Part shown: in pieces, positions 1-19,290 of the stretch | Layout of the letters: the number at the start of each line of letters is the position of its first letter | Numbering within the stretch: position 1 is the first letter of the stretch | Source of the DNA: Verrucomicrobia bacterium UBA3214 | GTDB lineage: Bacteria > Verrucomicrobiota > Kiritimatiellia > RFP12 > UBA1067 | Assembly (NCBI GenBank): GCA_002363575.1 | Contig: DEWI01000039.1 | Span: forward strand, 1-19,290 | DNA length: 19,290 bases | Direction of reading: 5' to 3' | Program-made: the position numbers and the translations under genes | The notes under the pieces: model-generated | The model's database searches: none | Seen by the model: only the letters and a program-made list of their open reading frames with translations | Told to the model about the DNA's origin: nothing

Positions 1-725
1 ATTGTGCCGCCGTTGAAGTTGACAGAAAGCGAACCGCCAGCAACTTCGTCCTCGATATGCTGCGTCACGAATGTTCCGCCGTTCAGATTCAGCGTTCCAT
101 TTCCGTCAGTGCTCTTCGTCCATTTGTTGTTGGCGACTGTTACCGTTCCGCTGTTTAGCGTGAACGTCGCCGAAGCGTCGGCCGCCGCACCAATGACAAG
201 ATCGCCGCTCAACTTCCAGTCGCTGTTGTTGCAGACGATTTTCCCGCTTCTGAGAGATGCCGTTCCGCTGAGATTCAGCGTCGTTCCATCAAGGAGGAGA
301 TACGCCGTCGTGCTAGCACCTGCCAAATACAAATCTTTCCCGTTGAAAGTCCCGCCCCGAAATATTGCACCAGCATTGTTATCAGCGGTGCCAATATTTG
401 TTGTGTTTGGCATTGTAAAGGATGCGTTGTTCTGAAACACGAAAGGATCTTCTTCCGACCCCACCTGCACATGCATCGTGGTCAGAGTTTCTGTAGTATT
501 CTCGTTTATTGTCGCCAATCGGTTCCATGTACCGCTGATCTTGTCGCTGTTGAACCAGATATGACCGGAACCGTTCCCGGTCCAGTTCCCTGATGTGGAC
601 CAGTAGGAATCCGCTCCGTTGCCAGTCCATGTCTTCGCCGCCCAAGCGCCGGTGGTGGCGAATGAGATTGCGAGTGAAAGCACCGCAGCGAGGCGGTGTG
701 CCGTCTGTTTTGCTCGTGTTTTCAT
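1..725 (-). CDS. Secreted beta-strand-repeat surface protein, 5' part only (runs off the window)
   Basis: An open frame of 241 codons runs from ATG at 725 to the window edge with no stop, so the C-terminal part lies outside. The first ~30 residues form a signal peptide (basic MKTRAKQ, hydrophobic LAAVLSLAISFATTGAWA, cleavage likely after AWA). The rest is rich in Gly, Thr, Asn and Ser, with recurring pieces such as WTGNGADSYW, GTLNLNGGTF and SVNFNGGT, the pattern of autotransporter-associated beta-strand repeats that stack into an extracellular beta-helix. A good ribosome site (AAGGAG at 731-736) sits 5 nt before the ATG. Exact binding target or anchoring cannot be judged because the C-terminus is missing. 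Such proteins are often very large in PVC bacteria (family knowledge); a role in adhesion or surface display is inference. Confidence 0.8.
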   Translation of the reverse strand, partial: MKTRAKQTAHRLAAVLSLAISFATTGAWAAKTWTGNGADSYWSTSGNWTGNGSGHIWFNSDKISGTWNRLATINENTTETLTTMHVQVGSEEDPFVFQNNASFTMPNTTNIGTADNNAGAIFRGGTFNGKDLYLAGASTTAYLLLDGTTLNLSGTASLRSGKIVCNNSDWKLSGDLVIGAAADASATFTLNSGTVTVANNKWTKSTDGNGTLNLNGGTFVTQHIEDEVAGGSLSVNFNGGT

Positions 726-1012
726 TGTTTCTCCTTTGTTGTTTAGAAGCAGCTGGTGGCGGTTTGCGGTCGCGAGCAATGCGCGATAGCGAGGCTCCTG
801 GAGGTACAGGAGCCGCGAAACCTCGGGGGCGGAAAAACACATTCTATGCGCGCATCCGCGCGCATGGCCGCCATACGGCCTTCTGATGCATGTTTTACAT
901 GGGGGGAGACAGGGAGGCAGAACGCGATTAAACGCCATGAACGCCATCGCCGGTGCAGTTCGTACGGCGATAATGTCACGCCAGTTTATAGCGACTACTT
1001 GCATCATTTTCA
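726..1012 (-). promoter_or_regulatory. Long hairpin-rich 5' leader of the surface-protein gene (candidate)
   Basis: No convincing gene lies between 726 and 1235. If transcription starts from the -10 at 1013-1018, the leader is about 280 nt. It contains four inverted repeats in a row: 793-800/807-814 (8 bp, GGCTCCTG with CAGGAGCC), 846-853/858-865 (8 bp, ATGCGCGC with GCGCGCAT), 866-870/876-880 (GGCCG with CGGCC) and 889-893/897-901 (CATGT with ACATG). It matches no riboswitch class that I recognise; the leader and its structure are inference. Confidence 0.35.
731..736 (-). promoter_or_regulatory. Ribosome binding site of the 725 gene
   Basis: On the minus strand AAGGAG lies 5 nt before the ATG at 725. 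It fixes the start of a gene whose end lies beyond the window. Confidence 0.75.
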
Positions 1013-1021
1013 ATTATACCA
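1013..1021 (-). promoter_or_regulatory. Extended -10 promoter for the 725 gene
   Basis: The minus strand reads TGGTATAAT: a perfect TATAAT at 1018-1013 preceded by TGn, which can replace a good -35. No convincing -35 hexamer lies at 16-18 bp. It would fire away from nadD, towards the surface-protein gene. Confidence 0.45.
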
Positions 1022-1042
1022 TATTTCAAGCTGGAGGTCGCT

Positions 1043-1063
1043 ACTGGTTTTAACCAGTTTTTT
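1043..1063 (+). terminator. Rho-independent terminator, plus orientation, with no upstream plus-strand gene
   Basis: ACTGGT (1043-1048), loop TTTA, ACCAGT (1053-1058), then a run of six T (1058-1063). The stem is perfect and the T-run is on the plus strand. There is no plus-strand gene before it in the window, so it would end transcripts running antisense to the surface-protein leader, or a small RNA. Confidence 0.5.
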
Positions 1064-1092
1064 GGCTCTCGATCTGGCATTTGAAATTCCGT

Positions 1093-1114
1093 AGCGCGTT
1101 GCGAGCGCGTTGCG
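1093..1114 (+). repeat. Tandem 11-bp direct repeat upstream of nadD
   Basis: AGCGCGTTGCG occurs twice back to back (1093-1103 and 1104-1114), exactly one helical turn apart and ending 11 bp before the nadD -35. It may be a regulator site; no known operator is recognised. Confidence 0.45.
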
Positions 1115-1125
1115 GGCGGGCACGC

Positions 1126-1155
1126 TTTACATGAGCGGACGGAAAATGCTACAAT
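1126..1155 (+). promoter_or_regulatory. Sigma70-type promoter of nadD
   Basis: TTTACA (1126-1131), 18-bp spacer, TACAAT (1150-1155), with TG at 1147-1148 giving an extended -10 (TGCTACAAT). A start near 1162 would leave a leader of about 74 nt. Confidence 0.65.
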
Positions 1156-1235
1156 ATCCCCCGTCGGCACACAATGGCGGCATCGCGCGCATCTGGCATC
1201 GGCGGCAATTTACAAATCAACGAGGATCAAAGAAA

Positions 1236-1928
1236 ATGAAAATCGGAATATTCGGAGGGAGTTTCGATCCCGTCCACAACGGCCATGTCGGCATAGCGAA
1301 AAAGGCGCTGGAAGAGCTTGGCTTGGATCGCCTCGCCGTCGTGCCGGCGGCCGTCAGCCCTTTCAAGGCGGATGAAGCAGGGCAGGCGCTTTTCGATGCT
1401 CCAACGCGCCTCATGCTTGTTCGCGCGGCTTTCAACGGCATCGAGCGCGTCGTCGTCGATGATCGCGAAATTCTTCGCGGCGGCACGAGCTATGCGATTG
1501 ACACCGTGCGCCAATATGCCGGCGAAAATCCCGATGCGCAACTCTATTTCATAATCGGCGAAGATTCGCGTGACGGCCTGCCGCGCTGGAAAGAATACGA
1601 TACGCTGAAAACCCTCTGCCGCTTCGTCGCATATCCCCGCACTCCGGAATCTTCGACGCATATCCGCTCGCTTCTCGCAGCGGGCGCGGACATCGCCGCG
1701 TTCGTTCCCGATGCCGTGGCGCTCTTCATCAGGCATCATGTCCGCGAGAATGCCGATTCGCGCCTCGCTTCCACAGTGCGCTCGGGACTTGTCCGCAAAG
1801 CCGGCTATTGCCCGTGCCGACTGCCGAAGCTCCCGGAATTCTTCTGCCCGTGCGAGGAATTTCGCGGCCAGCTCGCCGATCCTTCTTTCCACGGCCTCTG
1901 CCATTGCAGATTGTACGATAAGCCGTAA
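1236..1928 (+). CDS. nadD: Nicotinate mononucleotide adenylyltransferase fused to a ferredoxin-thioredoxin reductase-like Fe-S domain
   Basis: The 230-residue product has two parts. Residues 1-170 are NadD, which adenylates nicotinate mononucleotide in NAD synthesis: GGSFDPVHNGH at 7-17 carries the nucleotidyltransferase HxGH signature and SSTHIR at 139-144 is the SSTxIR motif. About 20 residues usually found before SSTxIR are missing. Residues 172-230 match the catalytic chain of ferredoxin-thioredoxin reductase: CPC at 192-194, CPC at 204-206 and CHC at 222-224, in the contexts GYCPCR, CPCEEFR and CHCRLY. In that family these cysteines bind a [4Fe-4S] cluster and form a redox-active disulfide. 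The frame is open throughout, and no internal start with a ribosome site is visible. I chose ATG 1236 (GAGGAT at 1222-1227 before it, and the MKIGIFGG family start); the frame is open further upstream. Both domain calls are by eye; the joint function is unknown. Confidence 0.88.
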   Translation: MKIGIFGGSFDPVHNGHVGIAKKALEELGLDRLAVVPAAVSPFKADEAGQALFDAPTRLMLVRAAFNGIERVVVDDREILRGGTSYAIDTVRQYAGENPDAQLYFIIGEDSRDGLPRWKEYDTLKTLCRFVAYPRTPESSTHIRSLLAAGADIAAFVPDAVALFIRHHVRENADSRLASTVRSGLVRKAGYCPCRLPKLPEFFCPCEEFRGQLADPSFHGLCHCRLYDKP

Positions 1929-2069
1929 GCGCGCCACCTCCCGAACGCCAGGCGCCTTCGCGCACTTCCGCCGCGCGCGCCCCTTCCAGACGCGGCGCCG
2001 CCATGCCCGGCTCGCGGCGTGGTTCCGGCGTCGTTCTGTTGCGCGCAGGCCTTTGGACTGCGCAAAACA

Positions 2070-2085
2070 CCACTAGATATTGTGG
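2070..2085 (+). promoter_or_regulatory. NrdR box 1 upstream of nrdD
   Basis: CCACTAGATATTGTGG fits the NrdR consensus acaCwAtATaTwGtgt at its core positions. It lies in a larger 20-bp dyad, CACCACTAGATATTGTGGTG (2068-2087). NrdR is the ATP/dATP-sensing repressor of ribonucleotide reductase genes (established knowledge). Its centre is 74 bp, about seven helical turns, before that of box 2. Confidence 0.7.
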
Positions 2086-2096
2086 TGCGGCGCTAA

Positions 2097-2117
2097 TTGT
2101 CCACAACCTGTAGATAA
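2097..2117 (+). promoter_or_regulatory. DnaA-box-like inverted pair (or degenerate third NrdR box)
   Basis: TTGTCCACA (2097-2105) and the inverted TGTAGATAA (2109-2117) flank ACC. Each 9-mer differs by one base from the DnaA box TTATNCACA. The overlapping CCACAACCTGTAGATA (2101-2116) also has a weak NrdR-box core, centred 31 bp from box 1, the usual spacing between paired NrdR boxes. Which protein, if any, binds here is open. Confidence 0.4.
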
Positions 2118-2135
2118 GTTTTTTACTTCTCCCCC

Positions 2136-2164
2136 TTGCGCGGACACAATATATAGTGTATCAT
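2136..2164 (+). promoter_or_regulatory. nrdD promoter
   Basis: TTGCGC (2136-2141), 17-bp spacer, TATCAT (2159-2164). NrdR box 2 fills the spacer, so repressor binding would block RNA polymerase. The -35 ends the 15-mer CTTCTCCCCCTTGCG, which recurs at the surface-protein promoter near 11676-11690. Confidence 0.6.
2144..2159 (+). promoter_or_regulatory. NrdR box 2, inside the nrdD promoter
   Basis: ACACAATATATAGTGT matches the NrdR consensus acaCwAtATaTwGtgt at all 16 positions. It lies between the proposed -35 and -10. Confidence 0.85.
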
Positions 2165-2241
2165 ATGCGTCGTTGCCTACCACAGAATGTGGTTTTGCGG
2201 CAGAATTTATCGATTTGAAGTATCCAATCAGGGGGACACCG

Positions 2242-4485
2242 ATGGAAACAAGGCCGATGACGATTATCAAACGCAGCGGAGAAGAGAAGCCGTTTGATAT
2301 CACGAAGATCGAAAACGCGATTCGCAAGGCGTCGCAAGCCGTCGATTACAGAGACGCGCTGAGCGAAGGCCGCATCAAGCTCATCGCGGAGGAAGTCGCC
2401 GGTGTTTGCGCGGCGCGCGATCGCGCAATGACCGTCGAAGAAATCCAGGATGTCGTCGAGACGAAGATCATGGAATTCAACGCGACGGAGATAGCGAAGA
2501 AGTACATCACCTACCGCTACAAGCAGTCGCTCCTCCGCCAGGCCAACACGACCGACAAGCAGATACTCTCGCTTATCGAGTGCAACAACGAAGACGTCAA
2601 GCAGGAAAACGCCAACAAGAACCCGACCATCAACTCCGTGCAGCGCGATTACATGGCCGGCGAAGTCTCGAAAGACGTCTCCGCGCGCCTTCTCCTGCCC
2701 GCCGATATCGTGCAGGCGCACCGCGAAGGCATAATCCACTTCCACGACATGGATTACTTCGCGCAGCATATGCACAACTGCGACCTCGTCAATCTCGACG
2801 ACATGCTGCAGAACGGCACCGTCATCTCCGGGACGATGATCGAAAAGCCGAAGTCGTTTTCCACGGCCTGCAACATCGCGACGCAAATCATCGCGCAGGT
2901 CGCGTCCAACCAGTACGGCGGCCAATCCATCTCGCTCACCCATCTGGCGCCGTTCGTCGAAGTCTCCCGCCAGGCCATCCGCCGCGAACTCGCCGCCGAA
3001 TGCGCCGATGCCGGCGTCGAAATGGACATGGCGGCTTTCGACCGCATCGTCGAAAAGCGCGTGCGCCGCGAAATCAAGAAAGGCGTGCAGACGATCCAAT
3101 ATCAGGTCGTGACGCTCATGACGACGAACGGCCAGGCGCCCTTCGTGACCGTGTACATGTATCTCGGCGAAGCGCGCAGCGAAAACGAGCGCCGCGATCT
3201 CGCGATGGTCATCGAAGAAGTCCTGAACGAGCGCATTCTCGGCGTCAAGAACGAACAGGGCGTTTACGTGACGCCGGCGTTTCCCAAGCTCATCTACGTG
3301 CTTGAAGAGCAGAACATCACGCCGGAATCCCCGTACTGGTATCTGACGGAACTCTCGGCGAAATGCACCGCCAAGCGCATGGTCCCGGACTACATATCCG
3401 AGAAGAAGATGCGCGAATACAAGCTCTCGAAAGGCGAAGAGCCAGGCCATGGCGATACGTACACGTGCATGGGCTGCCGCTCCTTCCTCACGCCTGACCG
3501 CTCGGGCAACGGCTTCGGCAATATCGCGCGCGCCGGCAACTACGAGCCGGGCAAGCCGAAATACTACGGGCGCTTCAATCAGGGCGTCGTCACCGTCAAT
3601 CTCGTCGATATCGCCCTTTCCGCACATGGCGACATGGCGCGCTTTTGGTCGATTTTCGCCGAGCGCATGGAGCTTTGCCACCGCGCGTTGCAATGCCGCC
3701 ACAACCGTCTGAAAGGGACGCCGAGCGACGCCGCGCCGATCCTCTGGCAGTATGGCGCGCTTGCGCGTCTCGACAAAGGCGAAAAGATCGACAAGCTTCT
3801 CTACGGAGGGTATTCGACCATATCGCTCGGCTACGCCGGCCTCTGGGAATGCGTGTACGCGCTGATCGGCAAGAAGCTGACCGAGCCCGAAGGCGAGAAA
3901 CTCGGCCTGGAGATCATGCAGAAGCTGAACGAGTTCACCGCGAAGTGGAAAGCCGCCGAGGATATCGACTACTCGCTCTACGGCACTCCTCTCGAATCCA
4001 CGACCTACAAGTTCGCGAAGACTTTGCAGAAGCGCTTCGGCGTCATCAAGGGCGTGACGGACAAGAACTACATCACCAATTCCTACCACATCCACGTCAC
4101 CGAGCCGATCGACGCATTCAAGAAGCTCGAGACGGAGGCGAAATTCCAGAAGCTCTCGCCCGGCGGCGCAATCTCCTACGTCGAAGTGCCGAACATGCAG
4201 AACAATCTGCCGGCCGTCCTCGCGATCATGCGCTTCATCTACGACAATATAATGTACGCCGAACTGAATACGAAGTCCGACTACTGCCAGGTCTGCGGCT
4301 TCGACGGCGAAATAGAAATCCGCAAGGATGCGTCGGGGAAGCTTGTCTGGACATGCCCGAAATGCGGCAACCAGGACGAGTCGCGCATGAATGTCGCCCG
4401 CCGCACTTGCGGCTACATCGGTTCGCAGTTCTGGAACCAGGGCCGCACGCAGGAAATCAAAGAGCGCGTGCTCCATGTATCTTGA
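2242..4485 (+). CDS. nrdD: Anaerobic (class III) ribonucleoside-triphosphate reductase, catalytic subunit
   Basis: The 747-residue enzyme reduces NTPs to dNTPs with a glycyl radical, so it works only without oxygen. Residues ~7-95 form an ATP-cone (IIKRSGEEKPFDITKIENAI), the allosteric dATP/ATP sensor. Cys180 (HNCDLVN) and Cys409/Cys412 (TCMGCRS) lie in the regions carrying the active-site cysteines. The zinc site is C682-x2-C685 and C705-x2-C708. The glycyl radical site is Gly724 in RRTCGYIG, followed by the usual WNQGRTQEIKERV tail. Length is normal for an ATP-cone-bearing NrdD. I chose ATG 2242 because GGGGGA sits 5 nt upstream; ATG 2257 is possible, and the open frame further upstream overlaps the promoter. 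It is co-directional with nrdG, 97 nt downstream. NrdR boxes upstream indicate repression when dNTPs are plentiful. Confidence 0.97.
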   Translation: METRPMTIIKRSGEEKPFDITKIENAIRKASQAVDYRDALSEGRIKLIAEEVAGVCAARDRAMTVEEIQDVVETKIMEFNATEIAKKYITYRYKQSLLRQANTTDKQILSLIECNNEDVKQENANKNPTINSVQRDYMAGEVSKDVSARLLLPADIVQAHREGIIHFHDMDYFAQHMHNCDLVNLDDMLQNGTVISGTMIEKPKSFSTACNIATQIIAQVASNQYGGQSISLTHLAPFVEVSRQAIRRELAAECADAGVEMDMAAFDRIVEKRVRREIKKGVQTIQYQVVTLMTTNGQAPFVTVYMYLGEARSENERRDLAMVIEEVLNERILGVKNEQGVYVTPAFPKLIYVLEEQNITPESPYWYLTELSAKCTAKRMVPDYISEKKMREYKLSKGEEPGHGDTYTCMGCRSFLTPDRSGNGFGNIARAGNYEPGKPKYYGRFNQGVVTVNLVDIALSAHGDMARFWSIFAERMELCHRALQCRHNRLKGTPSDAAPILWQYGALARLDKGEKIDKLLYGGYSTISLGYAGLWECVYALIGKKLTEPEGEKLGLEIMQKLNEFTAKWKAAEDIDYSLYGTPLESTTYKFAKTLQKRFGVIKGVTDKNYITNSYHIHVTEPIDAFKKLETEAKFQKLSPGGAISYVEVPNMQNNLPAVLAIMRFIYDNIMYAELNTKSDYCQVCGFDGEIEIRKDASGKLVWTCPKCGNQDESRMNVARRTCGYIGSQFWNQGRTQEIKERVLHVS

Positions 4486-4502
4486 GAATGCCGCCGCGCG
4501 CG

Positions 4503-4540
4503 CCGTCGCGGGACAGGGTTCGTCCCCTGCCCCGTGACGG
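4503..4540 (+). promoter_or_regulatory. Strong intercistronic hairpin between nrdD and nrdG
   Basis: The arms 4503-4518 and 4525-4540 pair over 16 positions with one G-U and one A-C mismatch, closing a 6-nt TTCGTC loop. No T-run follows (CTTGGC), so it is not a classical terminator. It could stabilise the nrdD message, attenuate nrdG, or be a copy of a dispersed palindromic repeat. Confidence 0.6.
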
Positions 4541-4582
4541 CTTGGCATATGCCGCGCGCCGCGCAAATCACGCTGCCAGGCG

Positions 4583-5086
4583 ATGAACTACGCTTCGATC
4601 AGGACATGCGACATCGCCAACGGCGACGGCGTCAGAGTCTCGCTCTTCGTCTCCGGGTGCACGCACCATTGCAAAGGCTGCTTCAATGAAGCGGCATGGG
4701 ATTTCGGGTATGGCGAGCCGTTTACGCGCGCAGTGGAAGACCGCCTGCTCGAAGCGCTCGCCCCTTCATACATATCGGGGCTGACGGTTCTTGGCGGCGA
4801 GCCGATGGAGCCTTGCAACCAGCGCGCGCTTCTCCCCTTCCTGCGCAGAGTCCGCGAACGCTTCGGCAATGCGAAGACGATTTGGATTTATACCGGCTGC
4901 ATCTACGAATTGGAGCTTCTGCCGGAAGCAAAGACGGATCGCTGGCGCACCGAAGCCACGGATGAAATTCTCGCCATTGTCGATGTCCTCGTGGATGGCC
5001 CGTTTATCGAGGAACTCAAAAACATATCCTTGCGCTTCCGCGGTTCATCCAACCAGCGCATAATCAACCTTCGCAAACAGGCATAG
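4583..5086 (+). CDS. nrdG: Anaerobic RNR-activating protein (radical SAM)
   Basis: The 167-residue protein makes the glycyl radical on NrdD using S-adenosylmethionine and a [4Fe-4S] cluster. The cluster motif CxxxCxxC is C26-THH-C30-KG-C33 (SGCTHHCKGC), and GGEP at 71-74 is the SAM-contacting motif of radical SAM activases. Length is slightly above E. coli NrdG (154 residues). No alternative in-frame start is seen just upstream, and the ribosome site is weak (AGG at 4578-4580), so expression may depend on coupling to nrdD or on the hairpin at 4503-4540. The adjacent nrdD supports the pairing. The 77 nt between its stop and the convergent gene end at 5164 hold only a weak stem followed by CTTTTTCTC near 5104-5112; no clear terminator is seen. 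Confidence 0.96.
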   Translation: MNYASIRTCDIANGDGVRVSLFVSGCTHHCKGCFNEAAWDFGYGEPFTRAVEDRLLEALAPSYISGLTVLGGEPMEPCNQRALLPFLRRVRERFGNAKTIWIYTGCIYELELLPEAKTDRWRTEATDEILAIVDVLVDGPFIEELKNISLRFRGSSNQRIINLRKQA

Positions 5087-5163
5087 CGCCGCCACGTCCG
5101 CGTCTTTTTCTCAATCGCGCGGGAGGGACGCTCGGGGGGCGGCGGGATTATCGGCATTGCCGG

Positions 5164-7149
5164 CTATTCCTTTTGCGCCCAGACGGACTTGGCCAAGACA
5201 TGGACGTGTCCATCCGGTGCGGAGAGTTTGTGCATGAATACGCCATCGGAGACTTCGACGGCTTCGGCAAGCACGCGATCTCCCGCGAAAGTCTCGGACT
5301 TGAAAACAAGCTCGAGCTCTTTGCAGAAGCCCCGTTCCGGCGGGACGCATTCCAGCATCCATTCCACGTAGCGCACGTTGTTCACATGTCCGTTGAGATC
5401 GATATCTGAGCGCCGCGCATGGAATTCCAGCGCATCGACTGGCTCCGTGCACGTCCAGCGAAGTTGCGAAAACGCATCGTCCTTGAGCGCCGGTTCGCGC
5501 GCGGGATCGGAAAGACTGCCGACGGAATCGGGGAGGGAAACGATTTTGCGTGCCGCGAGGTCGATCAACATCCATTCGCTCGTCGCCGCGCCGATCTTGC
5601 GCGTCGATGAATCGAGGATGATGAAATCGCGTCTGGCGGCGATCTTCCTGGCCGTGGTGGGCCAAGTCAAGATGGAAATGCCGTCTCCCCAGCGAGGCTG
5701 GCGCTCTATTTTAACTTTAAGGCGAGTGAGAACCCATGAAATGTTCTCGCCTTGATTCATGAAATTCGAGCGCGAGAAACCCAGCTCTTGCGCATTCAGG
5801 CTGGCCGCTTCCTGAAAGAGATTCAAGATCGCCGGGAGCTTGGCGAAGCCGTCGGGCCCGCATTCGTTCGTGCGGATGCGCCAGACGTAGCACCCGGGCG
5901 GATGCGGGCGGCGCAAACGCAATTCGCCGAGATCGGCGGCGGCCTGCGCGGCGATGTCGGCAGGCTCGCGCGGCACCGGCGCGCCGCCGGGCGAACTCGC
6001 ATCGACCGCCGAAAGCTGAAGGCGGAAATCGTCGCGCGCCCATGTGGCGGCGACGGCGCGATCGTCGAAGGGATATTGGACGCCGGCGATCTCCTGCGTG
6101 GTCTCGTGGCCCTTGCCGCAGACAAGCACGATGTCGCCGCGCGCCGCATTCGCCAGCGCGTAGCCTATCGCCTCGCGGCGATCGGGTATCGCGATGAATC
6201 CGGAGGCGTCGGGACGGACCCGCGTGACCCCTTTCTCGATTTCGCTGATTATGTCCAGCGGATTCTCCGAGCGCGGATTGTCGCTCGTGACCACGACGCG
6301 GTCGGCGCCATGCGCGGCGGCCGCACCCATCAGCGGGCGCTTGGCGGCATCGCGGTCGCCGCCTGCCCCGAACACTATCCACAAGCGTGCGAACGGCGGG
6401 AGGATCTGGCGCGCGGCCTGCAAGACCTTGGATATGGCGTCGGGCGTGTGCGCGAAATCCACATAGACATCGGCGTAGGCGTGGGGGCAGGCGATCTTCT
6501 CGAATCTCCCCCAGCGAGGACGCAGCTGCGGAATCCTCTCCTGTATGGCGTCGTGCGGGACGCCGGCAGCTTCCGCCAGCGTGGCCGCGACAAGCACGTT
6601 GGACTTGTTGAAATCGCCGTGGAGCGCGAGTTGCGAGAGATCGAAATGCGGCTCGGCGATTGTGACGGGGATAACGTCGAGCATCTCGAGATTCATCGCC
6701 TCGTGAAGCATGCGCTCCGCGCCTTCGCCATCCATGCAGACGACGAAAGGCAGCTTCCTGTTCTCGGCCGCGGCCTGCTCGGCGAGCCGCTTGGCGAAGA
6801 GGAATTTCGCGCGGAAGTATTCCTCCATCGTCTTGTGGTAGTCGAGATGGTCTTCGGTGAGATTCAAGAAGGCGCCGCCGGAGAACTTCGTCAATTTGCC
6901 GAAGCCAACGCGGTCTTGCACGATCGCATGGCTGGAGACTTCCATTACGCAGTCCTTGGCGCCGGCTTCGCGCATCTCTGCGTATATCGAGGCCAGGGCG
7001 TCCGCGGGCGGCGTGGTGTAGCCGGAGTGGAAAGTTCTTTTGAGGGTATTGACTTCGACGGTGGTGATGTAGGCGGCGTGCAGGAAATCCGCCAATATCC
7101 ATGTCGTCGTCGTCTTGCCGTTTGTTCCTGTTATTCCCCAAATGCGCAT
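5164..7149 (-). CDS. Fusion of an N-terminally truncated MurE-like ligase and an acyl-ACP thioesterase
   Basis: A single 661-residue frame holds two enzymes. Residues 1-380 are the central and C-terminal domains of a MurE-type ligase: GTNGKTTT at 8-15 (P-loop), SSHA at 72-75, LTEDHLDYH at 97-105, GRFE at 214-217, DFAHTPDAI at 231-239, DNPR at 290-293 (the meso-diaminopimelate-selecting motif) and GKGHET at 345-350. The first ~100 residues of normal MurE, the domain binding the UDP part of the substrate, are absent: the frame is closed by a TAG at 7255-7257 and upp occupies the DNA beyond. After a Pro/Ala-rich linker (~381-415), residues ~416-661 form an acyl-ACP thioesterase of two hot-dog domains: TNECGPDGFAKLPAILNLFQ opens the first, and DLNGHVNNVRYVEW carries the catalytic Asn and His of the second. 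No ribosome site precedes ATG 7149. Whether the ligase half still makes peptidoglycan precursor is uncertain. Confidence 0.87.
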   Translation of the reverse strand: MRIWGITGTNGKTTTTWILADFLHAAYITTVEVNTLKRTFHSGYTTPPADALASIYAEMREAGAKDCVMEVSSHAIVQDRVGFGKLTKFSGGAFLNLTEDHLDYHKTMEEYFRAKFLFAKRLAEQAAAENRKLPFVVCMDGEGAERMLHEAMNLEMLDVIPVTIAEPHFDLSQLALHGDFNKSNVLVAATLAEAAGVPHDAIQERIPQLRPRWGRFEKIACPHAYADVYVDFAHTPDAISKVLQAARQILPPFARLWIVFGAGGDRDAAKRPLMGAAAAHGADRVVVTSDNPRSENPLDIISEIEKGVTRVRPDASGFIAIPDRREAIGYALANAARGDIVLVCGKGHETTQEIAGVQYPFDDRAVAATWARDDFRLQLSAVDASSPGGAPVPREPADIAAQAAADLGELRLRRPHPPGCYVWRIRTNECGPDGFAKLPAILNLFQEAASLNAQELGFSRSNFMNQGENISWVLTRLKVKIERQPRWGDGISILTWPTTARKIAARRDFIILDSSTRKIGAATSEWMLIDLAARKIVSLPDSVGSLSDPAREPALKDDAFSQLRWTCTEPVDALEFHARRSDIDLNGHVNNVRYVEWMLECVPPERGFCKELELVFKSETFAGDRVLAEAVEVSDGVFMHKLSAPDGHVHVLAKSVWAQKE

Positions 7150-7235
7150 GGTTGAAAGAATAGTTGATAGATTGTCTGGATTCGATTTCGAGCGGCCGGA
7201 TGCCGGGATCGGGAGACTCGCGGCAGCGCGCCTTG

Positions 7236-7856
7236 TCAGAGCGTTCCGAAAATTCTATCCCCCGCGTCTCCGAGACCAGGTACAATATAATGGTGGGAGT
7301 TGAGATAGGAATCCTTGGCCGCGGTCCACACGGGGACGTCCGGGAATTCGGCTTCGAATTTGCCAATCCCTTCGGGAGCGGAAATCAAGCAAAGGAATTT
7401 GATGCGCTTGTAGCCGAGTTTGCGGAGCTGGCGCACGGCGTCGCAGGCGCTTCCGCCCGTCGCGAGCATCGGGTCGATGACGATGGCCAATTCGTCGCCC
7501 TGCGCCGGCGGGACTTTGGCGTAGTATGGAATCGGCTCTGCGGTATCTTCGTTGCGCTGCATGCCGAGGACGCCGACTTTGGCGTACGGCAGGATGCGGA
7601 GCATGGCGTCCAGCATCCCCATGCCGGCGCGCAGAATCGGCACGAGCACGATCCTGTCGGCGATCTTGCGCCCGGTAGTCTTTTTGAGCGGCGTCTCGAC
7701 GGGAATTTCGGCGGTGCGCAAATCGCCCAGCGCCTCGAATGCGAGAAATTCGGTGATTTCACTTGCCAGTTCGCGGAAAAGCTTGGGCGGCGTCGCTCTA
7801 TCGCGCAACAATGCCACTCTATGATCGACCAACGGATGACTCAAAACAGAATGCAT
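7236..7856 (-). CDS. upp: Uracil phosphoribosyltransferase
   Basis: The 206-residue enzyme converts uracil and PRPP to UMP (pyrimidine salvage, cytoplasm). Diagnostic motifs are ILRAGMGM at 74-81, the PRPP loop VIDPMLATGGSA at 126-137, and the uracil-binding end YIVPGLGDAGDRIFGT at 190-205. Length equals that of typical bacterial Upp (~208). A strong ribosome site, GGGGAAG at 7864-7870, lies 7 nt before the ATG. The MurE-thioesterase fusion begins 86 nt downstream on the same strand and may be co-transcribed. I see no regulator site beyond the promoter. Confidence 0.96.
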   Translation of the reverse strand: MHSVLSHPLVDHRVALLRDRATPPKLFRELASEITEFLAFEALGDLRTAEIPVETPLKKTTGRKIADRIVLVPILRAGMGMLDAMLRILPYAKVGVLGMQRNEDTAEPIPYYAKVPPAQGDELAIVIDPMLATGGSACDAVRQLRKLGYKRIKFLCLISAPEGIGKFEAEFPDVPVWTAAKDSYLNSHHYIVPGLGDAGDRIFGTL

Positions 7857-7880
7857 TTCACTACTTCCCCTTTCGGTAAT

Positions 7881-7911
7881 ATTATATCATAAATCGCCGC
7901 GGCCGTGTCTA
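7881..7911 (-). promoter_or_regulatory. Promoter of upp
   Basis: On the minus strand a perfect TATAAT at 7886-7881 is preceded by TAGACA (7911-7906) with a rather long 19-bp spacer. The -10 is about 25 nt from the upp start. Confidence 0.5.
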
Positions 7912-7951
7912 TTATCCGGGAATTTGTTTGGCGCGCGGGCGGCTCTGCAGG

Positions 7952-8006
7952 GCGCGCTTTCCGACGAAAGGAAAGCGCGCGAGACCGTGGGGACTCGCGC
8001 GCTTTT
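7952..8006. terminator. Overlapping hairpins after the 8034 gene (terminator region)
   Basis: Hairpin A: GCGCGCGAG (7975-7983) pairs with CTCGCGCGC (7994-8002); it is followed by TTTT on the plus strand (8003-8006) and by TTTCCTTT on the minus strand. Hairpin B: GCGCGCTTTCC (7952-7962) pairs with GGAAAGCGCGC (7970-7980). The two share 7975-7980 and exclude one another. The minus-strand gene stops at 8034, so this is its likely terminator; the T-run on that side is imperfect. Confidence 0.6.
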
Positions 8007-8033
8007 GGATGCCGTCGGGAACGGCATTGCCGC

Positions 8034-11000
8034 TTACTCGGCGGCGTTTTCGATCGTTATGGCGACCTTGTAGAAGCCGCTAACGGCCGAACCGTGCTCG
8101 AAGGCGGCGGCTTCTTCATCGGCGCCGAGCTGATACGTCTTCTTGAGAGTCCAGCCGGTCTCTGCGGAGGCGGCGATCGGCGCGGCGCTCTCGTAAACGC
8201 TGAGCATCACCTTGTAGGCGGGCTTGGCGTCTGCATCGATCGAGACGATGACATTGCCATCCTTGAGCTCGATCGTGGGCGTGACGTCCGCGGCGGGCTT
8301 CTCGGCATCGAAGAGGCCGAGCGCATACGCCTGCGCGTAGGTCAGGCCGCTCGTGGAGCCGGCGACCGGATCGGCCAGCGAAGCGCCTTCGGGGAGAGCC
8401 GCGGCGAGCGTGCTCTGGACGTCGGCGGGAATGTCGAATTTCTTGCCGTCGGCGCCGCCGGCGAAGCCATCGTCCGGAGGAACGACTTCCGTCCAGGATG
8501 CGACGAGGACGAGGTTGGCGTTCACGGGCGCGGTGAAGTCGTACGAGGCGCCCGCGAGAGTCCAACCGGCGAACTCGAATCCTTCACGTTCGGGATCCGC
8601 AGGCTTGGCGGCGGTGTCGCCTTCGTAAACGGACGACGTCTGGGCGAGTTCCGTGGTGCCGTCGGTATCGACGAACTTGACGGTGTACTGAGCCTTCGCC
8701 GCGACAGTGTAGGAGCCGTCGCCATTGGCCACGGTCTTGAAGCCGGTGGCGAGGAACGTGCCCTGGCCGTCGGCCCAGGAATCGTCGCCGAGCGCGGGAT
8801 CGACCTTGGAGAAAGTGCCGCCTTCGACGAATACCGCCTGCGTAGCATTGTTGGCCTGGTTGAGCGCCATGCCGGTCCAGCCGGAGTGATACTGGTAAGG
8901 CTCGTCGGTCAGGTTGGAGTACGTACCGCTCTTGATCGTGGCCGTCGCGCCGGCGAACGGATAGACGCACGCGCCCGCCTGCGAATCGACAGTGACGGTC
9001 AGATTCTGGAGGACGACCTGCGCACCGCTGCGAGAAGTGATGGCATATACGCCGTCTTTGACAATCTCCGTATCGTCCTGCGTGCAGTCGATCGTGCCGT
9101 TTTCAATGGTGACGGAACCGCTCTTGACGTCGAAGACGCTGCCGTTGCCGCTCGTGCCGGTACGGGTAATCGTCTTGCCGTTCAGATTGATTATCAATTC
9201 CGTACCGGCGCCGAGATTCGGCTCGACACGGGCATCGAGAGTTATGTTGTCTTCGATAATGACCGTATTGCCCGTCTTGGCGGCGGCGACAGCGGCGGCA
9301 AGCGTCTCGTACGGCGTGCCTGCGATAGATGCGACGCTGTTCAGGACCGTGTAAGTGCGCGTATCGGAATGCCAGACGAAATACGAAGCCATCGAACCAT
9401 TGTCAGCATAGGAAGGATCGGTGACGGTTACGACGAGATCCTTGCCGGCCGCCCCCTTGGTATATACATACATCAGCGCAGCTTCCACGGAATCGTAGAT
9501 CGTACCGTCGGAAACAGTCGCGAGGACGGGATACATATAGATGCCGGAGAGGTCGTCGATGGTCTTGTATTTAAGAACCGCGGCCGCGCCATTCACCGTG
9601 GCGTTGCCGAGAGCCGGCTCCTTGCCTTGCGTCGCGGTGAGCTTGACGATGCAGTTCGTTCCTGTCGCAGCGCCGTCGTAAACGATATTGCCGAGCGTGT
9701 ACTGGGCGCGTGTGCCGGCGAGAGTTCCGGTGTAGCCGTCGAGAGTACCGATCGTGTAGGGGATGGCGTTTCCGGCCGATCCGGTGCCATTGACAATCAA
9801 ATCGCCCGTGCCGGAAAGTTTGGTGATGATCGTCCTGTCGGCTGTCCAGCCGTTGCCGATCGTCCAATTGGCGGTAAGGACGATTTCCGGGACAATCGTC
9901 GGGGCGCTGCCGCCGGAGGTTCCCCAGTTTGTCGAGGGCAGGGCGATGAATGCGCCATTGACGCCGACGATCTCGACCTTGGAATCGGCATCGCCGAGGT
10001 CGTTGAAGTTGATGCGGGCGTTGCTGTTATCCGGGTTCCAGGCAACTTGGACGGTCGCATTGCCGAAGTCTCCGAAGCGCGGCACATTGCCGGTAATCGT
10101 GCCTGCATCCTCGAGGGTAAGGACTTTGCTATTTACATAGCCGACGAGCTGGCCGATTCTCGCCGTTGCAAGCGTCGAGGACATAGTGCCGGAGTTGGCG
10201 CAATTCCTGAGGACGACATTCTCGGAGGCATAGCCGAGGATACCGGCAAGGCCGTCCTGTCCGGCCTTTGCTCCGGAGGGCATCGTGAGCGTTCCGGTGT
10301 TAGAGCAATTCTCGATGACGATGCGCGAGCCCGCAATTTTTGTCTGCGCGATCGCCGAGATGCCGGCGAGTTTGGTGTAGGTGCCGTAGATTGCGGCGTT
10401 GTTCGTGCAGGAGACGACGCGAGTTTCGGTCTCGCCGCCGGCGCTCAGGCGCACGACTATGCCTGCCATGTTGTGCATGCCGGGGGTCGTCTCCGACAAG
10501 AACGATCCCGCCGCCGTGATATTCTGGAGCAGCGCGCCATTGCCGGCGTTGCCGACGACGGCATAGCCGTATTCGCCGGTTGCACCGCTCTCGACGGCGA
10601 TATTCTCGACGACGAGATTCTTGATCGTGCCGCCATTGACCTGGTTGAAGACGCCGCCGTAGTTGCGCTTGGTCATCGTGACATTGGCGATCTTGTAGTT
10701 GCCGCCGTCGTACGTGCCTGTGAAAGGAACGCCGTTGGTGGGGGTTGCGTCATATGTGCCGATGCCGGGGAATGCGGCTCTGCCGGCCATGTCGATATTG
10801 GCGACCTGCTGATAGCAGAAACCGGCGCCATAGCCGCTGGTGATGGCGTTGGCGAGCGTCTCGAGATTGGAGGCAGTGGCGATCTTGAAAGGCGCTTCGG
10901 CCGTGCCGCAGACGGTGCCGTCAGGAAGCATATAGGTTTTGCGCTGGGCAAACGCGGTATCGAAAGCTTCGCCGAAGTCGGTGAAATAGTCGCCTTCGAA

Positions 11001-11594
11001 ACCGTCGTCTGTCGTCGTGCCGATCTTGGCTACGCAATTCGCCGGAGCGTTGAACGGATCAGTCGTGCGGGCGACGAAGTTGTCGAGCTTGCCCGAACCG
11101 GAGACTTCGACGGAAGTGAAATCTCCCGGCATTTCGGCAGTTTGGCAATCGGCGAGCAGCTGGCGATTGAGATACACTTTATATCCGAGAGTATCCTTGA
11201 CAATCGTCAGACGATACCACGTATCTTCCGAGATCGTGGTTGACGTGACGGTCGTATCGACCTCGGAGCCATCCACGACGAGCTTGCCGTCGGCATCGGC
11301 ATAGATGCAAATCTTGCCTTCGTTGACGCCTTCCGGCGTGGACGGGTGGCAGACGAATTGCACGACCATATCCACGGCATCCGCGCCCGCGACATTGAGC
11401 TGCTGCCCTTCGTCGTCGATCTCGCAGTATTTGTCGCCGAAATCTTCGAATGGATACGGCGAGCCAATGGTCGGCTTTTCTGACGCATTCGCGTACAGAG
11501 TTCCATCTGTCTCAAAGCCGTCCTGCTTCGTCACCGCGGCAAATGCGCATGTGGCGAACGCAGTGACGGCTAAAGCCAGCAACGTTCTTTTCAT
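8034..11594 (-). CDS. Large secreted beta-helix protein with InlB-type repeat
   Basis: A 1186-residue protein with a clear signal peptide (MKRTLLALAVTAFATCAFA, cleavage after residue 19). Residues ~70-170 look like a concanavalin/LamG-type beta-sandwich (DMVVQF, KICIYADADGKLVVDG, TWYRLTIVKD, YKVYLNRQLLA). Residues ~285-480 have GLUG-like beta-helix turns (FTGTYDGGNYKI, YGGVFNQVNGGTIKNLVVENI). Residues ~780-930 read as right-handed beta-helix (LIINLNGKTI, GSVTIENGTI, ATIKSGTYSN). Residues ~968-1035 form an InlB B-repeat (YTVKFVDTDGT, EGYEFAGW-type REGFEFAGWT, LVLVASW). The last ~150 residues form another beta-rich part; no membrane anchor or sorting signal is visible at the C-terminus. AAGGAAGGG at 11606-11614 precedes the ATG with a long 11-nt gap. 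A surface or secreted binding role, perhaps to glycans, is inference. Confidence 0.88.
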   Translation of the reverse strand: MKRTLLALAVTAFATCAFAAVTKQDGFETDGTLYANASEKPTIGSPYPFEDFGDKYCEIDDEGQQLNVAGADAVDMVVQFVCHPSTPEGVNEGKICIYADADGKLVVDGSEVDTTVTSTTISEDTWYRLTIVKDTLGYKVYLNRQLLADCQTAEMPGDFTSVEVSGSGKLDNFVARTTDPFNAPANCVAKIGTTTDDGFEGDYFTDFGEAFDTAFAQRKTYMLPDGTVCGTAEAPFKIATASNLETLANAITSGYGAGFCYQQVANIDMAGRAAFPGIGTYDATPTNGVPFTGTYDGGNYKIANVTMTKRNYGGVFNQVNGGTIKNLVVENIAVESGATGEYGYAVVGNAGNGALLQNITAAGSFLSETTPGMHNMAGIVVRLSAGGETETRVVSCTNNAAIYGTYTKLAGISAIAQTKIAGSRIVIENCSNTGTLTMPSGAKAGQDGLAGILGYASENVVLRNCANSGTMSSTLATARIGQLVGYVNSKVLTLEDAGTITGNVPRFGDFGNATVQVAWNPDNSNARINFNDLGDADSKVEIVGVNGAFIALPSTNWGTSGGSAPTIVPEIVLTANWTIGNGWTADRTIITKLSGTGDLIVNGTGSAGNAIPYTIGTLDGYTGTLAGTRAQYTLGNIVYDGAATGTNCIVKLTATQGKEPALGNATVNGAAAVLKYKTIDDLSGIYMYPVLATVSDGTIYDSVEAALMYVYTKGAAGKDLVVTVTDPSYADNGSMASYFVWHSDTRTYTVLNSVASIAGTPYETLAAAVAAAKTGNTVIIEDNITLDARVEPNLGAGTELIINLNGKTITRTGTSGNGSVFDVKSGSVTIENGTIDCTQDDTEIVKDGVYAITSRSGAQVVLQNLTVTVDSQAGACVYPFAGATATIKSGTYSNLTDEPYQYHSGWTGMALNQANNATQAVFVEGGTFSKVDPALGDDSWADGQGTFLATGFKTVANGDGSYTVAAKAQYTVKFVDTDGTTELAQTSSVYEGDTAAKPADPEREGFEFAGWTLAGASYDFTAPVNANLVLVASWTEVVPPDDGFAGGADGKKFDIPADVQSTLAAALPEGASLADPVAGSTSGLTYAQAYALGLFDAEKPAADVTPTIELKDGNVIVSIDADAKPAYKVMLSVYESAAPIAASAETGWTLKKTYQLGADEEAAAFEHGSAVSGFYKVAITIENAAE

Positions 11595-11651
11595 AGTTTT
11601 TAGTACCCTTCCTTGATTTTCCCGGCGAACCTTTCACCAGTTTTCGCCTAT

Positions 11652-11680
11652 ATGATAGCATATTTTCTTTTCCCCCGCAA
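11652..11680 (-). promoter_or_regulatory. Promoter of the large surface-protein gene
   Basis: On the minus strand TTGCGG (11680-11675), 17-bp spacer, TATCAT (11657-11652), preceded by TGC, giving an extended -10. The -35 ends the 15-mer CTTCTCCCCCTTGCG shared with nrdD. An A-tract (11694-11703 on this strand) upstream could act as an UP element. Confidence 0.6.
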
Positions 11681-11703
11681 GGGGGAGAAGAGGATTTTTT
11701 TTT
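11667..11703 (+). terminator. GCAA-tetraloop hairpin followed by a T-run
   Basis: CTTTTCCCCC (11668-11676 region) pairs with GGGGGAGAAG (11681-11690) around a GCAA tetraloop, with one G-U pair, then AGGA and a long run of T. In plus orientation it looks like an intrinsic terminator, but no plus-strand gene precedes it and it overlaps the minus-strand -35. The T-run begins 4 nt after the stem, so it may be only a promoter element. Confidence 0.35.
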
Positions 11704-11727
11704 TAGCATCGAAAGCAAACTTCTTTT

Positions 11728-11740
11728 GTTATATAATAAC
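11728..11740. promoter_or_regulatory. AT-rich 13-bp dyad; possible plus-strand promoter or metal-regulator-like site
   Basis: GTTATATAATAAC is a perfect dyad (GTTAT, ATA, ATAAC) in a GC-rich region. It contains a plus-strand TATAAT (11732-11737) with TCGAAA 17 bp upstream (11709-11714). It also resembles the core of the gamma-proteobacterial Zur box (GTTATAnTATAAC, one mismatch). A promoter here would transcribe through the 22-bp repeats. Confidence 0.35.
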
Positions 11741-11834
11741 GACGCGCGCGCCTGCGCGCGAGAGCGAGAGCATGCCAAGCCTTTGCGCACCTGCCGCCGG
11801 GAGCGCGGCGCGGCCGCGCGGAGCGCATGCGCTC

Positions 11835-12024
11835 GCGACGCGGGTCGCGGGCAAAAGCGACCCGCGTCGCAGGCAAAGGCGACTCCAGTCGCGAGCAAAA
11901 GCGACCCGCGTCGCGAGCAAAGACGACTCCAGTCGCGAGACGAAACGACTCCAGTCGCGAGACGTGGCGACTGGAGTCGTGAAACAAGGCGACGGGAGTC
12001 GCGAAGATATGCGACTCTGGAAGC
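11835..12024. repeat. Array of 22-bp palindromic tandem repeats, eight units plus a partial ninth
   Basis: A 14-bp core GCGAC-nnnn-GTCGC begins at 11835, 11857, 11879, 11901, 11923, 11945, 11967 and 11989, with a degenerate half unit at 12011: an exact 22-bp period. The central four bases vary (GCGG, CCGC, TCCA, CCGC, TCCA, TCCA, TGGA, GGGA), while the 5-bp arms are kept apart from end-base changes. The 8-nt spacers drift from GAGCAAAA-like to GAGACGAA and GAAACAAG. It lies in the 485-nt gap between gene ends 12081 and 11594. The frames open across it differ every 22 nt and are not credible genes. As RNA, each unit can form a 5-bp hairpin with a 4-nt loop. Confidence 0.85.
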
Positions 12025-12080
12025 CGGGATTGCGGCTCAAGACCGCGGTAATTTCGTTTCAGGGAGTGTTTTGCGGCGCT

Positions 12081-13565
12081 TTAGTCGGCATTGACAAGCG
12101 CCTCGACTTCGCGGCGGAACGCGCCCATATCCACCTTGCCCTTGAGCGCGGCGGCATAACCGCAACGTCCGGCAATTTCATCGGCTTTCGCTTTGGCCGC
12201 CGGGCCGAGGATGCGGAGCTTTTCGGCGGCTACGATGCCGGCGCGAAGCGCGACGAGCCTTGCGGAAGGTTCGCCGTTTGGATATACGAGGAACGTATCG
12301 CCCGCCTTCCAGCTCTTCGTCTTGAAGGACGCATCTTTGTAGGGATCGGCAGGCCAGGAATTCGCCGCCCAGCGCAGAAAGCCGTCAAAGCCCGCCATGG
12401 CGGGATAGACGCCGAGCCAGAAGCCTTCGTCGTCGGAGCTGAGCATGAAATTGTTCGGGCGCTGCGGCGAGCAGCATACATAGACGGTGGTCTTGCAGCC
12501 CTGCGCGCGGCGCGCATCGAGCGTCTTGAGGAAATCGGGGCTTTTGCCGAGGTGGTGCAGGCCCTGGCTGTAGTTGTCGATCTTGATGCCGTCGAAAGCG
12601 GCGGGGCTCTTGTTGCCTGCCATGGCGACCTTGAGGCCCGGGGCCTTGGCTTGAATTAGCGCGACGATGGCGCGAACATCCTCCGGGGAACGCTCGTCCA
12701 TGGCCATATAGGCGTTCGCGAACCAACCCTTCGCCTTGAGGTGGGCGGAGAAATCGACGAGGAACGCGCCCCAGTATTCCTCGAACTGCGGCGTGCCGGG
12801 CAGCAGTTTCTCGCGGTGCGTCTGGCCGGCGGCATCGCGCCAACTGGCCATGTAGCCCCACGGGCACATCGTGTAGCAGGCGATATCCGGGCCAAGGCCG
12901 CAACTCCGCGCGAACTCCACGTAGCGGTCGAAAAGCGTATAGTCGAATTTCCACGAGCCGTCACCGGCCTTGACGCGGTCTATCATGGAATGGTAGCCGT
13001 CGTAGCACTGGTGGTTCCACGGGAGATCGAGAATGGAGACGGTGATCGTCTTTACGCCGAAGTCGGCTAGCGTGGACCAGACGGTGCGCATTCTCGCGTA
13101 GTGCTCGCTCGAAAACGGCTCGACGTCGAAGTAGCGCGCGACCGCCCACGGATGCTGCCAGAGATCGAGAAAATATTTCCACTCGCGCGGCGGCGGCAGG
13201 ACGCGAGGGAGCACTTCGATTTCGAGCGGCCCGAAGTTCCTCTTGCCTGGCTTGGCATCGGCGGCGACTTCGATCTTGCAAGCGCTTGGCGCTTTCGCGT
13301 CGCCCTGGCGCGCGGTGCGCCAGACATCGGGACGCGAGCGCATATCCACTCCCTTCGGCTTCAATTCGTACGCGACTTCGTCATAGCGGCCTGGCGTGAC
13401 GCAAACGCCATCTTTCGCTATGCAGCCTGCGGCGCCGACGGCCTTCGCTTCATTTTCCGGAAGCTCGAAATACGCGGTTTCGCCGCGCCAGACGCGCGCC
13501 GTGAAGGCGAAAGCGCCGGAACCCAGCATCGAAACGATCGCAAGAGCGGCGAACTTGGTTCTCAT
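12081..13565 (-). CDS. Secreted DUF4091/GH123-like glycoside hydrolase
   Basis: The 494-residue protein has a signal peptide (MRTKFAALAIVSMLGSGAFA). Residues ~20-125 are a beta-rich N-terminal part; residues ~130-420 form the barrel with features of the DUF4091/GH123 group: the acidic pair D290-E291 in AYMAMDERSPED, and the block GFWLGVYPAM...FLRWAANSWPADPYKDA (381-411). In GH123 an Asp-Glu pair drives substrate-assisted cleavage of beta-N-acetylgalactosaminides (family knowledge); D290-E291 is the candidate here. I preferred ATG 13565 because AAGGGA lies 8 nt before it; ATG 13571 is only 2 nt from that site. It follows a GH89 gene on the same strand, so both may act on the same amino-sugar glycans. 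Substrate is inferred, not shown. Confidence 0.82.
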   Translation of the reverse strand: MRTKFAALAIVSMLGSGAFAFTARVWRGETAYFELPENEAKAVGAAGCIAKDGVCVTPGRYDEVAYELKPKGVDMRSRPDVWRTARQGDAKAPSACKIEVAADAKPGKRNFGPLEIEVLPRVLPPPREWKYFLDLWQHPWAVARYFDVEPFSSEHYARMRTVWSTLADFGVKTITVSILDLPWNHQCYDGYHSMIDRVKAGDGSWKFDYTLFDRYVEFARSCGLGPDIACYTMCPWGYMASWRDAAGQTHREKLLPGTPQFEEYWGAFLVDFSAHLKAKGWFANAYMAMDERSPEDVRAIVALIQAKAPGLKVAMAGNKSPAAFDGIKIDNYSQGLHHLGKSPDFLKTLDARRAQGCKTTVYVCCSPQRPNNFMLSSDDEGFWLGVYPAMAGFDGFLRWAANSWPADPYKDASFKTKSWKAGDTFLVYPNGEPSARLVALRAGIVAAEKLRILGPAAKAKADEIAGRCGYAAALKGKVDMGAFRREVEALVNAD

Positions 13566-13649
13566 TGTCATTTCCCTTTCTTTAAAATTGAACTGAATAT
13601 GAGAGCGCCGAGTGCGGAACTTTGTTTTGTCCGCTGCGCGGCGCGCCGG

Positions 13650-15422: not shown

Positions 15423-15460
15423 GATGTCGGTGTGTTTTCCGAGTTGGACGAAGGCAGATG

Positions 15461-15931
15461 CTATTCCCGTTCCCAAAGCTTGAAATCGGCATCGGCGATA
15501 CGCGGGAAGCGGCGCCCGGCTTCGTCGTACATCTCGAGGCGCCCGGTGACGACGATAGGCGATTCGTTTGGCGGGAAATCCCCCGGCCACGAATATTTCG
15601 CCTTTGGAAGGAACTCCACAGGATCAACGACAGAGCAGCAAACGCATCCCGCCTCGGACGCGGGAGCGATGGCGAACGAGCGATGGACGCCCGCGGAGTC
15701 TTCGTCTTCGGCAAGGACGAAAGCGCCCGCGAGGCGCAGCGTCTTGCCTTCGAACTCGACGGGATTAGCGGCGAGGCGGTAGGTTGTCGAAGATCGCAAC
15801 GAGGGCTTCATGCTCATCAAATCGAAATCGACATCGGCGCGCGGCGTAGGCGCGTCGAGCATGCAAAAAAGCGCGACGGCCGCGAAAGGCAGCGCCGCCA
15901 ATGAAAACTTCGCGATGGCGGAGGCTTTCAC
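15461..15931 (-). CDS. Small membrane-anchored protein with CxCC motif, coupled to the zinc permease
   Basis: A 156-residue protein starting at GTG 15931, which overlaps the permease stop as GTGA and has GGGAGG 8 nt upstream, so translation is coupled. Residues ~7-25 are a hydrophobic anchor or signal sequence (no lipobox: the residue before Cys23 is Phe). The rest is soluble and beta-rich: EGKTLRLAGAFV at 61-72, EAGCVCCSVVDPVEF at 93-107 with Cys96, Cys98 and Cys99, then PIVVTGRLEMYDE. By eye this resembles the C-terminal part of YcgQ/DUF1980-type proteins (G-k-v-x-G-f ... CC-x-D ... V-x-G-x-l), some of which are zinc-regulated, but I could not verify it. A role in metal handling in the envelope is inferred from its position and cysteines. 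Confidence 0.75.
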   Translation of the reverse strand: MKASAIAKFSLAALPFAAVALFCMLDAPTPRADVDFDLMSMKPSLRSSTTYRLAANPVEFEGKTLRLAGAFVLAEDEDSAGVHRSFAIAPASEAGCVCCSVVDPVEFLPKAKYSWPGDFPPNESPIVVTGRLEMYDEAGRRFPRIADADFKLWERE

Positions 15932-16752: not shown

Positions 16753-16756
16753 GGCG

Positions 16757-17419: not shown

Positions 17420-17430
17420 TCGAGATCCTT

Positions 17431-18414: not shown

Positions 18415-18484
18415 TCTTCTGCTTTCCTTGGTATCCGCTGGCGGGAAGAGACGGCGCGAGAGACGGGAACGCTGCGGCAGGCTC

Positions 18485-19276: not shown

Positions 19277-19290
19277 GCGGTTTCGGTTTT

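Follow-up and report, generated by a model that had tools for sequence, protein, structure and literature searches.

What does an enzyme of NAD synthesis do with a reductase domain at its C-terminus? This question is raised by a gene on contig DEWI01000039.1 of Verrucomicrobia bacterium UBA3214 (Kiritimatiellia; GenBank assembly GCA_002363575.1), of which positions 1 to 19,290 of the forward strand, the whole stretch analysed, are referred to here as the window. A single frame of 230 amino acids (1236-1928, +), with an ATG start and no internal stops, joins a nicotinate-nucleotide adenylyltransferase, NadD (residues 1-168; 1236-1739, +), to a catalytic domain of the ferredoxin:thioredoxin reductase (FTR) or ferredoxin:disulfide reductase (FDR) type (residues 171-230; 1746-1925, +) and ends with a stop codon at 1926-1928 (+). 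We show here that this in-frame fusion, first proposed from the bare sequence (hereafter the original prediction), is real and neither chance nor an assembly accident, because its cysteines are invariant, their spacing is exact in 121 of 121 proteins (that of the window and the best 120 of 2536 matches) and fused frames are open in 37 of the genus's 61 genomes. With dozens of separate copies in frame, a frameshift or assembly artefact was rejected. NadD probably hosts a ferredoxin-dependent thioredoxin reductase that took over from TrxB in this lineage, and would be mainly its carrier.

The two parts of the fused protein

The N-terminal part is a recognisable bacterial NadD. It scores 124.6 bits against the NadD equivalog TIGR00482 (cut-off 112.45), matches PF01467 (E=5.2e-19), and its fold is matched by Foldseek to NadD structures of Bacillus and Staphylococcus with TM scores of about 0.8 on the target (0.79 for Bacillus subtilis NadD, PDB 1kaq). 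The motifs GGSFDPVHNGH (residues 7-17) and ESSTHIR (138-144) are in place; they correspond to GxFxPxHxGH and SSTxIR, which we take to be the nucleotide-binding motifs of NadD. H14, G16, H17, S140, T141 and R144 are invariant in all 22 members of alignment A1. The fused gene is the sole NadD match above cut-off in its own genome (74% complete), and motifs and profile suggest that this only recognised NadD still makes nicotinate adenine dinucleotide. Compared to bacterial NadD such as 1kaq, the window protein lacks about 30 profile positions (130-158) between YPR, which ends at residue 135, and SSTHIR (139-144), and it carries the C-terminal FTR domain. The same segment is absent from all 17 non-fused relatives inspected, and the shortening is therefore not a product of the fusion event.

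Directly after the NadD part follows exactly the pattern CPC-x9-CPC-x15-CHC, the FTR hallmark named in the original prediction, formed by Cys192 and Cys194 (1809-1817, +), Cys204 and Cys206 (1845-1853, +), and Cys222, His223 and Cys224 (1899-1907, +). All six cysteines and His223 are invariant in A1, and the CxC, CxC, C[H/Y]C arrangement is present in 37 of 37 fused genomes of the genus. The strict NadD motif pattern is likewise kept in 117 of the 121 proteins, the remaining four deviating at one residue each; the first of the 120 matches is the window protein's own cluster. One may argue that nadD captured an FTR part that is now without a reductase role, and that the association with TrxB absence described below reflects shared ancestry. 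The preservation of the six cysteines and their spacing throughout the 121 proteins speaks against such a passenger, and the FTR part is no less conserved than the NadD part.

Profile searches recognise this domain to different degrees. The original prediction expected two Pfam matches, of which PF01467 was recovered, while PF02943 (FeThRed_B) stayed below its cut-off of 22 with 13 bits (E 0.11) in the window protein and 16.3 bits when the domain was searched by itself, although it is precomputed on 13 of the best 120 of 2536 relatives. Every one of the 22 members of A1 is matched by PF02943 at E<=1 (best 5.1e-7). When the own genome was searched with the same model, the window's domain was missed and a single chance match (E 0.44) lay elsewhere; the model is therefore too weak for this domain here. 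A profile built on alignment A2 finds exactly one match in the same genome, the fused domain. Modelled alone (pLDDT 96), the domain is predicted to adopt the FTR fold, as the original prediction had implied, and its only clear matches in the PDB are ferredoxin:thioredoxin and ferredoxin:disulfide reductases. Searched against the PDB, the A2 profile returned nothing but chance matches such as crambin and no FTR; the deeper alignment A3 gave 4tpu (E 0.0013), 7pwe (E 0.31) and one chance match.

The close contact of the two parts allows for a regulatory reading. An Fe-S/disulfide site could sense oxidant or the state of ferredoxin and set NadD activity, thereby tying NAD synthesis to the redox state. 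The linker-free, zero-length junction is in line with this idea, and the model of the whole fused chain (pTM 0.85) would permit a fixed arrangement. The 37 fused genomes fall into two junction types. In 11 of them, among these the window's, SSTxIR is followed by the LVPxxV helix, the C-terminal helix of NadD; in the other 26 this helix is lost and the FTR domain comes nearly directly after SSTxIR. However, the NadD part has no conserved cysteine. There is none in 16 of 37 fused NadD parts, one in 18 and at least two in 3. Since 16 parts are free of cysteine, there is no conserved reducible disulfide in NadD and a switch within NadD is unlikely; a disulfide switch inside NadD was dropped on this ground. 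Considering also the gene distributions described below, we regard redox control of NadD as unlikely. Similarly doubtful is a combination in which the protein is the cell's only thioredoxin reductase with its two activities linked, such that the FTR domain tunes NadD through its redox or cluster state and NAD synthesis follows ferredoxin supply. A coupling of the activities is possible, the tight junction being the one observation that points to it. NadD as carrier of a redox module, the other idea of the original prediction, is the better supported of the two.

Relatives and origin of the fusion

FTR-type domains on other partners are already known; no paper on a NadD-FTR fusion was found in the open-licence PMC literature. 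The best fold and profile matches, the FDR of Methanosarcina acetivorans (4tpu) and the glutaredoxin-FDR of Desulfotalea psychrophila (7pwe), share with the window protein the FTR-type domain, the CxC-CxC-CxC order and an extra domain on the chain, at about 27-28% identity. Judged by title or chain name, their partners are redox proteins (rubredoxin in 4tpu, glutaredoxin in 7pwe), whereas the window protein has an adenylyltransferase, and in the alignment the cysteine spacing is x14 and x12 in 4tpu compared to x9 and x15 here. Plant-type FTR (PDB 1dj7, 2pu9) has a variable chain, PF02941, which was found in 0 of the 61 genus genomes (among 14 control genomes only Synechococcus was positive), and there is no photosynthetic context. 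Closer are small FTR catalytic-chain-like proteins from Clostridia and other genomes of the phylum, which are 40-64% identical to the window's domain, have the same spacing in 116 of 120 (best 120 of 3353 matches) and are in some sources named ferredoxin thioredoxin reductase catalytic beta chain. In contrast to the fused domains, which form a clade of their own, these are separate proteins, mostly of 66 amino acids among those listed. The original prediction held that an FTR chain is normally a small separate protein, which is true for most FTR relatives read but not for 7pwe, 4tpu and one member of the family. In this genome (G383, genus g162), the FTR domain stands in frame with a Sua5/YciO/YrdC domain (L152:2-769, -; PF01300, E 1.4e-38, residues 94-245 of 249) and the frame runs off the contig end. 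If real, this is another case, in the same family, of FTR joined to an unrelated enzyme of housekeeping type; no other locus examined had an FTR and a Sua5-type domain in one frame.

The NadD-FTR fusion itself was searched for in related genomes, as had been proposed, and 27 of 58 loci from genome contigs are full fusions. They lie in records labelled Kiritimatiellae/Kiritimatiellia, Verrucomicrobia, Lentisphaerae or uncultured bacterium; stated sources of fusion records are horse faeces and segments of the goat or sheep gut. RUG labels, borne by some metagenome-assembled genomes, presumably stand for rumen. The other 31 are FTR proteins without NadD, 30 of them from Clostridia-type records. 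A clostridial fusion was considered and rejected, as the loci in question (L032-L062) match only from query residue 136-172 on and their frames hold FTR alone. None of the 64 FTR frames that lie outside the fusions contains a NadD motif. Within the genus, 51 of the 61 genomes have a NadD match, fused in 37 and not fused in 14. Outside the genus, ten genomes of the family carry the FTR domain, all in genera g2 and g162; eight of them were read (G367 and G368 were left out), with seven small separate FTR proteins and the PF01300 fusion of G383. In a phylum sample of 288 genomes taken from a larger group, full-length A1 matches occur, among those listed, only in the genus (G000, G171, G253).

Fused FTR domains form one clade in the FTR tree (support 98/97; 99% of 200 bootstrap trees), which has only 64 columns. 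FTRs of the g2 type, joined by G384, branch among those of Clostridia, and neither group includes G383 or G385; inner support is moderate. L035 was removed from this tree as a copy of G385. The NadD tree, built from the 51 genus genomes with a NadD match (the other 10 are absent) and three further family genomes, places fused rows at more than one position (fewest changes 3) and does not reject a single clade (p-AU 0.29). Two origins of the fusion were therefore dropped, as both trees accommodate one clade. Two genomes stand apart. G291 contains a second, partial fusion copy (NadD helix plus FTR domain; L165:1364-1765, +), near-identical to the complete one that its contig also carries, which is either a recent segmental duplication or an assembly effect. 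G239, of the same genus (88% complete, 1.3 Mb), has TrxB and neither NadD nor FTR matches; NadD may be absent or lie in a gap.

Thioredoxin partners and the absence of TrxB

The genomic context of the unfused relatives indicates a substrate. FTR genes not fused to NadD have a same-strand thioredoxin-like neighbour in 47 of 64 loci, the frames being 60 bases or less apart in 42. Neighbours were identified with a motif pattern and not a profile (WCGPC-like, in a frame of 95-170 amino acids within 1.2 kb; CYC was allowed in the FTR), and, three pairs being identical, the 64 loci contribute 61 distinct domains; they include the FTR-Sua5 frame of G383, which has no such neighbour. None of 28 fused loci has a thioredoxin-like gene inside the 1.2-kb range. 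A thioredoxin of the window's own genome (G000) is encoded at C21:13414-13698. The pairing of unfused relatives with thioredoxin-like genes is at odds with a domain whose task is to switch NadD.

The second indication is the near-exclusion of FTR and TrxB in the family. TrxB was scored as present at E<=1e-30 in genus and family and at E<=1e-40 in the phylum, weaker matches being taken collectively for other flavoproteins. Among 114 family genomes, 45 have FTR only, 56 TrxB only, two both and 11 neither. For the genus alone these numbers are 35, 17, 2 and 7, and at a completeness of at least 80% they are 27, 9, 1 and 3. Seven genomes of g2 bear FTR and eight TrxB, in g162 three and two, respectively, with zero overlap in both genera. 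G307 and G311, the only two in the family in which the fusion and TrxB co-occur, represent either a transitional state or contamination. A NadD-specific switch does not predict that the domain tracks the absence of TrxB within the family, and on this distribution, as on the missing cysteines, the switch proposed in the original prediction is not supported. Since the FTRs of the genera concerned do not go back to a single acquisition, it seems that TrxB absence accompanied FTR gain more than once in the family.

Several observations limit this picture. The replacement appears not to be a general rule, as 23 of the 29 phylum-sample genomes that bear FTR retain TrxB (17 of them of genus g62), although TrxB is absent from 6 of 29 FTR-positive versus 8 of 259 FTR-negative genomes (Fisher 0.001). 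Furthermore, there are too few events for a formal tree-based test, which is low in power, and the FTR and TrxB labels are clustered on the tree. The clustering, the low power and the many FTR-positive genomes outside the family that keep TrxB are also what would favour a passenger that lost its reductase role. However, g2 and g162, which have other FTR types, show the TrxB exclusion as well, and together with the preserved cysteines this makes a passenger highly improbable. A separate observation concerns phylum genomes mostly of genus g62 (loci L113-L138), where FTR adjoins a thioredoxin-like gene and TrxB is also kept in many; here two thioredoxin-reducing routes appear to coexist.

Thus, thioredoxin is the plausible substrate because unfused FTRs mostly adjoin thioredoxin-like genes, FTR and TrxB hardly ever co-occur in the family, and its FTRs seem to stem from more than one acquisition. 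The C-terminal 60 residues would be the catalytic domain of a ferredoxin:thioredoxin/disulfide reductase, with a [4Fe-4S] cluster on four of the six cysteines. The remaining two, Cys194 and Cys224, would form the redox-active disulfide, an assignment we make by analogy to plant-type FTR. Ferredoxin, the likely donor, would deliver single electrons to the cluster, which would reduce the disulfide and then thioredoxin. In this lineage the module would replace the NADPH-dependent thioredoxin reductase TrxB. The most economical reading is that the FTR module, formerly a separate gene, became attached to a constitutively needed enzyme and acts as a separate head.

Neighbouring genes and what the fusion may mean

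In the window, the fusion is followed after 0.3 kb, on the same strand, by nrdD, encoding a class III ribonucleotide reductase (2251-4485, +), and nrdG, encoding its activating protein (4583-5086, +). This arrangement would fit an FTR domain that feeds the adjoining NrdD, directly or through thioredoxin; the FDR of Methanosarcina barkeri is reportedly such a reductant, going by the title of Wei et al. 2015. However, among the 28 fused loci, whose flanks differ in length, only two have the nrdD protein cluster nearby, and nrdD is not a conserved neighbour. A coupling to the adjoining nrdDG was dropped on this ground, and a dedicated supply of NrdD is very unlikely. As one downstream use of reduced thioredoxin, NrdD supply is compatible with a thioredoxin reductase. 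Further genes of the window were noted. A frame of 661 amino acids (5164-7149, -) is another unusual in-frame fusion, in which a MurE-type ligase without its N-terminal Mur domain is joined to an acyl-ACP thioesterase (PF08245, PF02875, PF01643 and PF20791; TIGR01085 above cut-off, starting at profile position 86). A NAD kinase-like gene (18485-19276, -) lies about 16.5 kb from the NadD fusion and scores below all 18 listed cut-offs. Adjoining glycosidases with a GH123 catalytic domain and an alpha-N-acetylglucosaminidase are found at 12081-15440 (-).

If a ferredoxin-dependent thioredoxin reductase is indeed hosted by NadD, a clade of gut bacteria would have swapped its NADPH thioredoxin reductase for a ferredoxin-fed domain on an enzyme of NAD synthesis, and such a central function would sit in an unusual place. 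One family would then offer a natural series for the exchange of an electron donor, from TrxB over FTR beside thioredoxin to FTR on NadD and, once, FTR on a Sua5-type protein, and the donor swap of a thioredoxin system would become accessible to a one-protein assay. The annotation NadD in these genomes could then conceal a thioredoxin reductase.
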